NCBI GenBank assembly: GCA_016223085.1 | Contig: JACRPS010000017.1 | Coordinates: 1 to 63,650, forward strand | Length of the DNA stretch: 63,650 bases | Source of the DNA: Chloroflexota bacterium | GTDB taxonomy: Bacteria > Chloroflexota > Anaerolineae > Aggregatilineales > Phototrophicaceae | Direction: 5' to 3' | Shown: positions 21,970 through 27,479 of the stretch, piece after piece | Layout of the letters: each line of letters starts with the position of its first letter | Position numbering within the stretch: the first letter of the stretch is position 1 | Program-made: the position numbers and the translations under genes | The notes under the pieces: model-generated | The model's database searches: none | Told to the model about the DNA's origin: nothing | The model's input: only the letters and a program-made list of their open reading frames with translations

Positions 21970-22632
21970 ATGAATACCGACACCGCTTACGGATACGTGG
22001 AACGCTGCGGCCTGATGGCCGGGATGCGCGGCTACTTCCCGCCGGACAACGCCCTGCGCGTAACCGGCGTGCTGCTGGACGCCGGCATCAACGTGTTTGA
22101 GTTTTTGATGAACTCTGAACAGCCGCTTGAAGCGATGCAGGCCGTTAAGCGCGCTTATGGCAGCGACGCCTGCGTTGGCATGGGCACGGTGCTGGACGCC
22201 GATACCGCGCGGCGCGCGCTGGAGGCGGGCGCGGATTTTATCGTATCGCCCGCGTTTCACCCGGACGTGGTGCGGACGGCGCAGGCGGCGGACGTGCTGG
22301 TTGCGCCGGGCGTCATCACGCCGACCGAGTGCGTGGACGCTTGGGCGCTGGGTGTGAAGTTGCTCAAGATTTTCCCGATTGGTCCGCTGGGGCTGGACTA
22401 TTTTAAGGCCATTCGCGCGCCGCTGGACCACATGAAATTTATGTGCAACGGCGGCACCAGCGATCAGAACGTGGGCGACTTTCTGCGGGCGGGCGCGGTC
22501 GCCTGCGGCATGGCGGGCTGGCTGGTCGGCGACGGCCACATGGCGCTGGACGTGATCGGCCAGCGGGCGCGCCGCCTGCGGCAGATCGTGGACGAAGTGA
22601 AACGCGGTGTGAAGGGAACGGTGACGGTGTAG
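21970..22632 (+). CDS. eda: KDPG/KHG aldolase
   Basis: A 220-residue class I aldolase of the Entner-Doudoroff type, splitting 2-keto-3-deoxy-6-phosphogluconate to pyruvate and glyceraldehyde 3-phosphate. The Schiff-base lysine is K133 in VKLLKIFPIGPLG. GMRGYFP supplies the arginine, and the family's VEVT is replaced by FEFLM at residues 43-47, keeping the Glu. GMGTVLDADTARRALEAGADFIVSP and VAPGVITPTE match the family closely, as does CNGGTSDQNVGDFL. GGAAGGAGTATTT precedes the ATG. A related aldolase with different acid substrate is possible because of the FEFLM change. It completes the route that starts with the altronate dehydratase. Confidence 0.85.
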   Translation: MNTDTAYGYVERCGLMAGMRGYFPPDNALRVTGVLLDAGINVFEFLMNSEQPLEAMQAVKRAYGSDACVGMGTVLDADTARRALEAGADFIVSPAFHPDVVRTAQAADVLVAPGVITPTECVDAWALGVKLLKIFPIGPLGLDYFKAIRAPLDHMKFMCNGGTSDQNVGDFLRAGAVACGMAGWLVGDGHMALDVIGQRARRLRQIVDEVKRGVKGTVTV

Positions 22633-22653
22633 CGGTCGGCGAAATGATATGCT

Positions 22654-22682
22654 GTAGGGGCGAACCGTCGGTTCGCCCCTAC
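22654..22682. repeat. GTAGGGGC palindrome, copy 2
   Basis: 14-bp arms GTAGGGGCGAACCG and CGGTTCGCCCCTAC around one central base. It lies between the aldolase stop and the 3' end of the broken transposase and supplies the last in-frame stop of the transposase frame (minus, 22679-22681). Confidence 0.85.
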
Positions 22683-23245
22683 GGTTTCGTTTTTATATTT
22701 ACAGGATTTTCCCGATCAAATGCCCATCTGGTTACGTTATTGAGGATATACTCGCTGGCGGTGTAAAAATCGCGTTCATCACGGATGACGTGTTAGTAAT
22801 AATTGCGCTGCCACATGGGTGAGCCAGGGACGTTGCGGAGGGCGTTGATGCGTTTAGTAACCGCAGATTTAAACGAACGAATAATGGTCGGCAGAGAACC
22901 AGACACAGGGCGACCAAATGATGCGCTGTGGGATTGCAGGGGCACGGCATGCCGTGCCCCTACGGAATTCTTCTCCGCAATAATTACGATGCCATGAAAA
23001 TGATTCGGCATTACGACATATACCCCTAATTCGGCTTGTGGAAAATGCACCGGAACTGCCGTCCAACATGCCTCAACCACCGCCCCATAATCATTCAACC
23101 GCATCACACCGTCCTCGCCCACGCCGCCAAATAAACATTCCCGTTGATAGGCGCACACGGTCACAAAATACGCGCCATTTTGTTTGTAATCGTAATCGGG
23201 TAATCGTATCGAACGGCGGTGACGTGTGTCAGGATTATATTTCAT
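22679..23245 (-). pseudogene. RAYT-type (REP-associated, Y1/IS200-like) transposase, nonsense-mutated
   Basis: The frame from MKYNPDTRHRRSIRLPDYDY reads a RAYT/Y1-type transposase: NGAYFVTVCAYQRECLFG, then VVMPNHFHGIVI with the HxH metal site, then SFKSAVTKRINALR and WQRNYY. Directly after NYY there is TAA (22793-22795). The same frame continues past it as HVIRDERDFYTASEYILNN, the normal RAYT C-terminus with its catalytic-helix region, up to TAG in the palindrome at 22679-22681. The simplest reading is one GAA-to-TAA change, since related proteins have NYYEHIIRDE. The frame also contains an in-frame palindrome (VGARHAVPL, 22938-22961). An upstream ATG in palindrome copy 4 is rejected as start. 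Such enzymes mobilise or shape REP-like palindromes in cis; this copy is probably inactive or only makes a truncated protein. Confidence 0.8.
22938..22961. repeat. GTAGGGGC palindrome, copy 3, inside transposase frame
   Basis: Perfect 24-bp palindrome AGGGGCACGGCA / TGCCGTGCCCCT, read in frame by the transposase pseudogene as GARHAVPL in a variable loop between GIVII and the SFKSAV helix. Confidence 0.9.
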
Positions 23246-23269
23246 AAATGGCCTCAAAACGTGTACACT

Positions 23270-23297
23270 GTAGGGGCACGGCATGCCGTGCCCCTAC
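23270..23297. repeat. GTAGGGGC palindrome, copy 4
   Basis: Perfect 28-bp palindrome GTAGGGGCACGGCA / TGCCGTGCCCCTAC, 25 bases upstream of the transposase start and upstream of proB. With copies 2 and 3 it flanks and lies inside the transposase. Confidence 0.9.
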
Positions 23298-23401
23298 GCA
23301 TCTCCCCTACGGCAAATCCCCCGGCTGGAAATCTTCTGGCATCCTACCCGTCCAGCCCGTATAATGCGCCTCGTTGTTTATTCCATTCTACAGCGAACGT
23401 T

Positions 23402-26056: not shown

Positions 26057-27349
26057 ATGATTGACCTTCACGATATGGGCAAGCGCGCGCGGGCGGCGGC
26101 GTTACATCTGGCGCGGGCAACGACGGAACAGAAAAACGCGGCGCTGGGGGCGATGGCCGACGCGCTGGAAGCCAACGCCGAAACGATTCTGGCGGCGAAC
26201 CGGCTTGATCTGGACGATGGCCGCGCCAACGGCCTGAGCGCGGCGCTGCTGGATAGGCTCGACCTGCAAAAACGCCTCGGTGGAATCGCGGCTGACGTGC
26301 GCAAAGTGGCCGAACTGCCCGACCCGGTGGGGCAGGTGTTTGACGCGGCGGTGCTAGACAACGGCCTGCGTGTCTCCAAGCGGCGCGTGCCGATTGGCGT
26401 GCTGGGTGTGATCTACGAGGCGCGCCCGAACGTTACGGTCGACGTGGCCGCGCTGGCGCTGAAAACTGGCAACGCCGTGATTCTGCGCGGCGGCTCGGAA
26501 ACCTATCGCAGCAACATGGCGCTGGTGAAAGTGCTGCGCGAGGCGATGACCGCGCACGGTTTCCCCGCCGACGCTTTCCAGTACATCGAAAGCACCGACC
26601 GCAAATACGTTGGTGAAATGCTGCGGCTGCACCAGTACGTGGATATGATTATCCCGCGCGGCGGCAATTCGCTGCATACCTTCTGCCGCGAGAACAGCAG
26701 CATTCCGGTGATTACCGGCGGCATTGGCATCTGCCACCTGTACGTGGATGAAACCGCCGACCAGGACGCGGCACTTAACATCATCCACAATGCCAAGACG
26801 CAGCGGCCTTCGGTCTGCAACGCGCTCGATACCGTGCTGGTCAACCGGCAGATTGCGGCGGATTTCCTGCCGCGCGTGGTGGAACACCTGGGCAAGGACG
26901 GCGTGACGTTTAAGGCTGAAGCCGAAGCCTATACGATTCTTCAAGGCGAAACCGTAGGGGCACGGCATGCCGTGTCCCTACCCAACGGCTATCTAATTGA
27001 CCCCGCCGGGCCGGGCGATTTTGATACCGAATGGCTGTCGCTGGTGCTGGGGCTGAAGGTGGTGGACTCGCTGGACGAGGCGATTGAGCATATCCGCCAG
27101 CACAGCACGCAGCATTCGGACGGCATCCTGACGCAGAACCCGGACGTCGCCAATCGCTTTCTGGACGAGGTGGATTCGGCGGCGGTGTACGTCAACGCCA
27201 GCACCCGCTTTACGGATGGCAGCGCGCTGGGGCTGGGCGCGGAGATTGCGATCAGCACGCAGCGGCTGCACGCGCGCGGCCCGATGGCGCTGGAAGCCCT
27301 GACCACCTACAAGTGGGTGATTGTGGGAGAAGGCCATGTCCGACACTGA
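26057..27349 (+). CDS. proA: Glutamate-5-semialdehyde dehydrogenase
   Basis: A 430-residue NADPH-dependent enzyme reducing glutamyl-5-phosphate, second step of proline synthesis. Family motifs in order: [26 protein letters not shown]-type [40 protein letters not shown] with the catalytic Cys at 254, [38 protein letters not shown] and [18 protein letters not shown] at 26057 is preferred over TTG at 26042 because of GGGGA upstream. Odd: at residue 300 a whole 28-bp palindrome is in frame (VGARHAVSL), in a loop before the FDTEWLSL region that is shorter in E. coli ProA (417). The frame stays open, and all catalytic motifs are kept, so the enzyme is probably active. Confidence 0.93.
26954..26981. 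repeat. GTAGGGGC palindrome, copy 5, in frame in proA
   Basis: GTAGGGGCACGGCA / TGCCGTGTCCCTAC, one mismatch in 14 pairs. The frame starts exactly at GTA and reads VGARHAVSL. Confidence 0.9.
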
Positions 27350-27479
27350 GAGAAACCCCGAAGAAAAGGAAGACGTAGGGGCGTACCGCCGGTACGCCCC
27401 TACACCCGCTACCCTGCTCATCTCCCTGAAGCTGCCGGTGTTTGTGAAAAAGTTAAAACATCTGCTGCTGCCGGCGTAA
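27336..27479 (+). CDS. Putative 47-residue protein overlapping the end of proA
   Basis: A short frame from ATG 27336, overlapping the last 14 bases of proA in another frame. It encodes a charged start ([13 protein letters not shown]), then VGAYRRYAP read from palindrome copy 6, then a hydrophobic/basic end ([20 protein letters not shown]). GGAGAAGG lies just upstream. It might be a real small gene coupled to proA whose frame absorbed the palindrome, or a chance frame. No family is recognised. Confidence 0.3.
27375..27403. repeat. GTAGGGGC palindrome, copy 6
   Basis: 14-bp arms GTAGGGGCGTACCG and CGGTACGCCCCTAC around one C, 26 bases after proA. It may also end transcription of the proline genes. 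Confidence 0.9.

Follow-up and report, generated by a model that had tools for sequence, protein, structure and literature searches.

A probably decayed RAYT gene with its cognate palindrome in a Chloroflexota genome, and the covariation of palindrome cores with two segments of RAYT proteins

The stopped RAYT gene and its palindromes

The initial annotation of a 63,650-nucleotide stretch of DNA from a Chloroflexota bacterium (GCA_016223085.1, contig JACRPS010000017.1), hereafter the window, pointed to a RAYT-type transposase stopped by one codon, with palindromes around and inside it. This raises the question of whether the gene made these palindromes and, if so, which parts of the enzyme would recognise them. 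The features of the locus are as follows.

22633..23401, no strand: interval holding the unit, between the upstream gene (21970-22632) and a proB-like gene (AA_kinase and PUA), from comparison with genome G016
22793..23245, minus strand: RAYT/TnpAREP open frame of 150 aa, from translation and a match to profile A1 over positions 1-181 with one TAA
22679..22792, minus strand: rest of the frame past the stop, which encodes the helix of the catalytic tyrosine (Tyr codon 22748-22750) and runs to a TAG that falls within the downstream palindrome, from translation and alignment
22994..23002, minus strand: HUH motif, the H-F-H of MPNHFH (22994-23011), with M, P, N and both H invariant in A1
23042..23080, minus strand: putative specificity segment 1, end of helix B, VVEACWTAVPVHF, from covariation with the palindrome core
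22859..22903, minus strand: putative specificity segment 2, helix C, SGSLPTIIRSFKSAV, from covariation with the palindrome core
22936..22963, no strand: in-gene palindrome, core ACGGCA, a 28-mer with one foot letter changed, translated VGARHAVPLQ, from the palindrome scan
23270..23297, no strand: upstream palindrome, core ACGGCA, a perfect 28-mer of the cognate family, from the scan and the learned correspondence
22654..22682, no strand: downstream palindrome, core GAACCG, a 29-mer of another family, non-cognate by the learned correspondence, from the scan and the correspondence

Translation bears out the proposed frame from 23245 to 22679 (minus strand) with TAA at 22793-22795: ATG at 23245 opens it, 150 codons lead to the stop, and the C-terminus continues in frame beyond it, as had been noted, with HVIRDERDFYTASEYILNN up to the TAG at 22679-22681 within the downstream palindrome. 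That the protein is of RAYT type is likewise supported, by the match to profile A1 (built on 29 rows, the window's own protein among them), by a match of the stopped frame to NCBIfam NF047646 REP_Tyr_transpos that lies under the cut-off (33.9 bits for a cut-off of 80), and by the fold of a model of a relative, L069, whose best Foldseek match is 4er8, a structure of the E. coli RAYT with a REP hairpin bound (E 1.6e-7, 20% identity). The stopped frame gave no match to Pfam PF01797 Y1_Tnp. Comparison of the translation with A1 places the HUH motif in the conserved core.

When aligned by profile with E. coli TnpAREP (PDB 4er8), the window gene has its TAA at the position of E100, upstream of the catalytic Y115 and N119. 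The alignment with relatives that the initial annotation had called for, extended to 240 RAYT genes, has E (191) or D (48) in this column in 239 of them and H in the remaining one. The catalytic Y and N (SEYILNN, the N four residues after the Y), which never vary among the 28 open relatives of A1, are present in the window DNA but past the stop; among the residues that contact the GTAG guide, W94 and Q95 are translated, the E100 position is the stop and R104 lies beyond it. At columns conserved in at least 90% of the genes, the window gene departs from the consensus only once besides the stop, by a valine after it where 97% of relatives have proline (valine in 2 of 239). The TAA is the sole clear lesion of the gene, yet not its sole oddity, and a recent loss of this RAYT is plausible.

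Palindromes were confirmed on both sides of the frame and within it (22654-22682, 22936-22963 and 23270-23297), and our own criterion also gives 17 footed palindromes in the window, where at least 17 had been counted; five 3-mer shuffles gave 0, 1, 0, 0 and 0, and GTAGGGGC occurs 16 times against 1.65 expected. They are of the double-foot REP type GT[AG]G ... C[TC]AC, present in many copies, and as their foot is GTAG, the CGTC foot of rickettsial RPE and of CGTC repeats is not matched. In the whole genome (6.03 Mb in 37 contigs, 97.85% complete, 4.44% estimated contamination) GTAGGGGC-N10..16-GCCCCTAC occurs at 333 places, with 0 for the reversed control. This corresponds to a mean of about 3.5 such places per window length, and the window has 4, so that its palindrome density is not unusual for the host genome. 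The ACGGCA 28-mer is found at 229 places with at most 3 mismatches, the wider ACG[AG][CT]A group at 202 double-foot places, and the G[AT]ACCG group in 81 copies, the reversed controls being 0 in each case; the ACGATA 28-mer has 76 exact copies, all within the ACG[AG][CT]A group. The two flanks of the window gene differ, the upstream palindrome being cognate and the downstream one from a different family. The idea that the window RAYT made all three palindromes is not supported, since among 51 cores the downstream one comes only 41st for it. Palindromes of 29 bases of the G[AT]ACCG group lie at 22654-22682 and 27375-27403, and among the RAYTs found none is predicted to recognise them.

A second RAYT lies on contig C12 and is more decayed than the window gene, its frame being changed and holding two TGA codons. 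Inside it sits one of the 76 ACGATA copies (C12:1193867-1193894). A search of the genome with the window protein as query (33 of 33 candidates scored) found these two RAYT loci and no intact RAYT of the window kind; a profile search with 150 of 280 candidates scored returned the same two. The search for an intact copy that had been suggested as a check thus found, besides the window gene, the C12 relic. An ACGGCA palindrome also lies 20-30 bp from each of two open Y1_Tnp frames of the same genome, at C8:13469 and C10:5821 (L001 1407-1428 and L002 1930-1957).

The unit lies between the gene at 21970-22632, which we take to be aldolase-like, and the proB-like gene. In the same-genus genome G016, 47 bp separate the end of the upstream gene's match from the proB-like gene, compared with 793 bp when counted from that residue in the window, a spacing that would fit insertion of the RAYT unit. 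The neighbouring proA also contains a palindrome (26954-26981, translated VGARHAVSL). It is absent from all six aligned same-genus proA, one of them 90% identical, and the window proA is 30 bases longer, in frame, than four of these and 33 and 39 longer than the two others.

Across genomes, the association between this RAYT and palindromes foreseen in the initial annotation was recovered in part. An N-terminal piece of the protein matched in 71 of 151 genomes searched, its own included; the median number of palindromes per genome was 4 with a match versus 0 without, and any palindrome was present in 58 of 71 versus 36 of 80 genomes (one-sided Mann-Whitney p 4.5e-7, kinship and completeness being ignored). 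Two palindrome-rich genomes, G036 (237 palindromes) and G135 (143), do not conform: neither search detected a RAYT in them, their assemblies being 85% and 80% complete and 150 of 274 candidates having been scored for G036. These two are same-family and same-order genomes.

Palindromes inside RAYT genes

Palindromes inside genes were scanned for in a set of 290 loci, of which 9 were skipped beforehand (three Y1_Tnp loci, three window copies, two relic pieces and one stopped frame). The genes retained were 240 distinct ones of nearly full length in which the HUH and W motifs could be recognised; they come from Chloroflexota and, going by record titles, from many other phyla. A footed palindrome lies between the HUH and W-Q motifs in 103 of the 240, and 137 have no in-gene palindrome by our criterion. 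Palindromes reach 2.37/kb in the loop, compared with 0.017/kb for the N part of the gene and 0.27/kb for its C part. A chance property of the loops is ruled out by ten codon shuffles, which left 0-1 of 240 genes with a palindrome. The idea that the loop is simply richer than the flanks was also discarded, the excess being gone when only the 50 bp adjoining the gene are compared (2.43/kb upstream, 3.19/kb downstream); with loop and near-flank densities about equal, local insertion and tolerance are enough as an explanation. In 54 genes there is a palindrome inside and none within 250 bp outside.

Among in-gene palindromes with an exact coding-strand foot, 57 are read in the V-G-A frame, 25 in the other open frame and 0 in the third, which would place a TAG in frame. 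Five cores occur in both open frames, which suggests repeated insertion. In the window gene, the loop between beta3 and helix C carries the REP in frame; the loop was placed with the model of L069, a Nitrosomonas halophila gene whose in-gene 28-mer equals the upstream palindrome of the window gene and whose loop is predicted to be disordered (pLDDT <50 at residues 95-102, model mean 85.4). The initial annotation had described the frame as pierced by a palindrome. A reading of this as damage is not sustained, the palindrome lying in the same loop in 103 of 240 RAYT genes and REP insertions inside subclass 2.4 genes being already described in the available text of Quentin et al. (2018, PMC6006769).

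Several other palindromes at RAYT genes deserve mention. The loops of L104, L105 and L141 contain short tandem peptide repeats, e.g. RAGLE in L105, which look as if palindrome-coded peptides had expanded. For 8 of 75 downstream palindromes (L031, L149, L090, L158, L097, L086, L178 and L110) the GTAG provides the stop codon of the RAYT, and the window frame, past its own stop, likewise ends in a palindrome TAG. Downstream of the RAYT of L110, four GGGATGCAATTCTATTGCATCCC palindromes lie within about 210 bp.

Covariation between palindrome core and protein segments

A gene that carries its own target is a labelled enzyme-target pair, and many subclass 2.4 genes qualify. In the 54 genes with both an in-gene and a flanking palindrome (within 1 kb), the in-gene core is identical to that of the best-matching flank palindrome in 38 and is one base off in 7 more, i.e. 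agreement is at least 5/6 in 45 of 54, with a mean of 5.22/6 against 2.19 (maximum 2.81) when permuted. When the distance between in-gene cores was compared with that between protein windows in the 103 genes, leaving out the loop columns because the loop encodes the palindrome, two segments stood out, helix C with r 0.39 and the helix-B end with r 0.28; other windows gave about 0.1 or less, and 95% of the permutation maxima were below 0.10. With flank cores in their place (n=80), the peaks again fall in these two regions (0.35 and 0.22, limit 0.13). In the 29 genes having flank palindromes only, the two segments are the two highest peaks (0.49 and 0.38, limit 0.26), and columns 144 (0.32) and 164 (0.27) also exceed this limit. 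The core thus covaries with the end of helix B and with helix C.

Single columns follow single bases. At core position 6, R at column 66 goes with G in 41 of 42 genes and F with A in 30 of 32, and at column 62 T accompanies G in 32 of 32 and I accompanies A in 31 of 35. For column 121 and core position 3 the pairs are T-G (20/23), S-A (15/17), E-G (11/12) and R or K-T (11/11). Column 152, the E100 position, lies outside both segments and reaches a z of 11; values inside the segments go up to 25.

That helix C covaries through linkage with the in-gene palindrome beside it was considered and set aside, a second peak lying across the HUH strand and both peaks recurring in the flank-only genes, which argues against it. 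Whole-protein phylogeny was rejected as well: with in-gene cores other windows stay at about 0.1 or less, the C-terminal part alone gives 0.04 (a test run without L110 and L051 and with three cores set by eye, cores being later extracted by rule), and 12 control columns fail the tree contrasts (p 0.25 to 1 against position 6). The rest of the protein taken as a whole gives r 0.19, over a stretch that still includes the helix-B segment.

Contrasts between independent pairs were drawn on a tree that leaves out the segments and the loop and has few supported deep branches. They went in the expected direction for column 66 in 20 of 20, column 62 in 21 of 22, column 125 in 12.8 of 13, column 121 in 10 of 12, column 120 in 19.5 of 27 (7.5 without difference) and column 124 in 19 of 25 (0.7 opposite); when confined to supported branches, at most 2 independent pairs are left among the traits listed.

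The core can also be predicted. When nearest neighbours were chosen by the segments among genes at most 60% identical elsewhere, at least 5/6 of the core was recovered in 59% of cases, against 2% with the rest of the protein; at most 50% identity elsewhere, the values are 22% and 3%. Training on 66 Chloroflexota genes gave a mean of 4.41/6 for 37 genes from other phyla, with 20 at 5/6 or better and 5 exact, while control columns reached a mean of 1.89 (1 of 37 at 5/6 or better) and the commonest core 2.38. For this hold-out only the training set was used to choose the columns, 23 out of 24 of which lay within the two segments; for named loci, the split between Chloroflexota and other phyla was judged from record titles. 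Leave-one-out over the 103 genes, with columns chosen on all of them, gave 35 exact predictions and 67 at 5/6 or better. Flank-only genes are less well predicted (mean 3.66/6, 10 of 29 at 5/6 or better, 6 exact), and residue 121 alone, with columns taken from the full set, is right about core position 3 for 8 of 26 such genes. A flank palindrome may be non-cognate, the downstream one of the window gene being an example, but the lower success with flank-only genes is still a weakness. Viral contigs (3 loci) and plasmids (5 records) are too few for an independent test.

The two relics of the host genome, both outside the 103 training genes, were decoded in this way. For the window gene the prediction is ACGGCA, exactly its in-gene core, and it is still ACGGCA with training genes at most 55% identical elsewhere; a simple nearest neighbour left it tied between one GAGGCA and two ACGGCA genes. 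The C12 relic is predicted to read ACGATA, again exactly its in-gene core, with a support of 0.44 for the first base. A link between the window enzyme and one palindrome family is supported, the correspondence drawn from other genes predicting the exact core. GAACCG ranks 41 for the window gene and 49 for the C12 relic among 51 cores. Given the exact predictions for the relics and the low rank of GAACCG, the two relics match two abundant families, and G[AT]ACCG is an orphan whose maker is lost or unseen.

From this covariation we infer direct reading of the DNA by the two segments, and we consider it likely that the end of helix B (columns 62 and 66) and helix C (columns 120, 121, 124, 125 and 128) form a modular, transferable code for the tip base and the stem bases.

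Origin of the palindromes and significance

HUH-Y enzymes cut folded single-stranded DNA. The locus is very probably a decayed REPtron, i.e. a TnpAREP of the subclass 2.4 type that has its cognate REP both upstream and in a tolerant surface loop, between the presumably aldolase-like gene and proB. The intact enzyme would have bound the palindrome in its folded, single-stranded form, with the guide-contact region, the end of helix B and helix C reading the stem core and the hairpin tip; the tyrosine would then have cut and joined the DNA, spreading ACGGCA-core palindromes. The stop removes the tyrosine helix, and the palindromes would thus outlive their maker, no new ACGGCA copies arising once the enzyme broke, if events took place in this order.

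Other explanations have to be weighed against a decayed REPtron. The in-gene palindrome might be a working part, serving autoregulation through its own message or gene or kept as a resident copy for spreading, and not a mere tolerated insertion. The palindromes inside 103 genes, 54 of which have none within 250 bp outside, and the five cores found in both open frames, pointing to repeated insertion, speak for it; given that the loop is no denser than the adjoining 50 bp, that the L069 loop is predicted to be disordered and that 137 of 240 genes do without an in-gene palindrome, we regard it as unlikely. As for the stop, it could stem from faulty sequencing or assembly, or represent a minority allele if the assembly is mixed, the genome being in 37 contigs with 4.44% estimated contamination; this is quite improbable, the second RAYT being broken too, which fits decay in this lineage, and the proline-to-valine change beyond the stop fitting relaxed constraint.

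It is highly doubtful that another agent spread the palindromes and that the RAYT merely sits among them. The two open-frame Y1_Tnp transposases, presumably of class 1, would be candidates, having an ACGGCA palindrome 20-30 bp from each frame (C8:13469 and C10:5821), and there are palindrome-rich genomes with no RAYT detected. Yet the core tracks RAYT residues across phyla and each relic is predicted to match one abundant family exactly, for which reason the two transposases were rejected as sole makers. A truncated 150-residue protein might still be made and bind palindromes without cutting, e.g. as a repressor or a chromosome-structuring protein. It would keep the HUH face and both specificity segments, which still fit the main family of the genome, and the sole off-consensus residue at the columns conserved to at least 90% lies after the stop. 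This reading is very improbable, as the stop falls at the E100 equivalent, in a region described as contacting the GTAG guide in the available text of PMC6006769 and PMC8266576, so that binding should suffer; moreover, 12 RAYT frames, the window's included, have one internal stop, which makes decay not rare.

The window gene is assigned by its features to TnpAY1 subclass 2.4. As far as the accessible text of Quentin et al. (2018, PMC6006769) goes, it shares with this subclass the in-gene REPs between the HUH and Y motifs with the frame kept, long and double-foot REPs, the variable loop between beta3 and helix C and a broad taxonomic scatter; it differs in being stopped before the tyrosine and in having a downstream palindrome of another family. 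The same text holds no residue-to-core correspondence. E. coli TnpAREP (PDB 4er8) matches the modelled fold of the relative L069, and its W-Q guide region and Y115/N119 spacing align with profile A1, whereas the E. coli REP has a bulged stem, as described in the sections available of PMC8266576. These sections report that E. coli TnpAREP contacts the REP through the DNA-binding helix alpha3 and the guide region, and a contact between helix alpha3 and the REP in one enzyme group was there only speculated upon (Corneloup et al. 2021, PMC8266576). The GTAG-tagged REPs of Di Nocera et al. (2013, PMC3733652) have in common with those of the window the GTAG foot, the high copy number, the occurrence inside genes, the use of the REP TAG as a stop codon and a presence in Chloroflexi; REPs within RAYT genes are not described in the portion of that paper at hand. 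Nunvar et al. (2010, PMC2817692), in its available part, reports RAYT-REP coevolution at the level of trees and a link between rayt and REP abundance, with no residue-level mapping. A literature search by titles and the beginnings of abstracts brought up no recognisable residue-level RAYT-REP correspondence, and a text search with the letters of the window palindromes returned unrelated texts alone. What is new here is the residue-to-base correspondence, the in-gene REPs of subclass 2.4 being known since 2018.

This correspondence makes the recognition by a RAYT of its own REP directly testable. Fossil enzymes can be matched to palindrome families, and orphan families are exposed, such as the 81 G[AT]ACCG copies. 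If the modular code is true, public genomes would amount to a self-labelled library of enzymes and targets, since each gene repeatedly receives the cognate palindrome in its own loop; dead enzymes could then be decoded, and HUH enzymes might, in laboratory strains, be retargeted.
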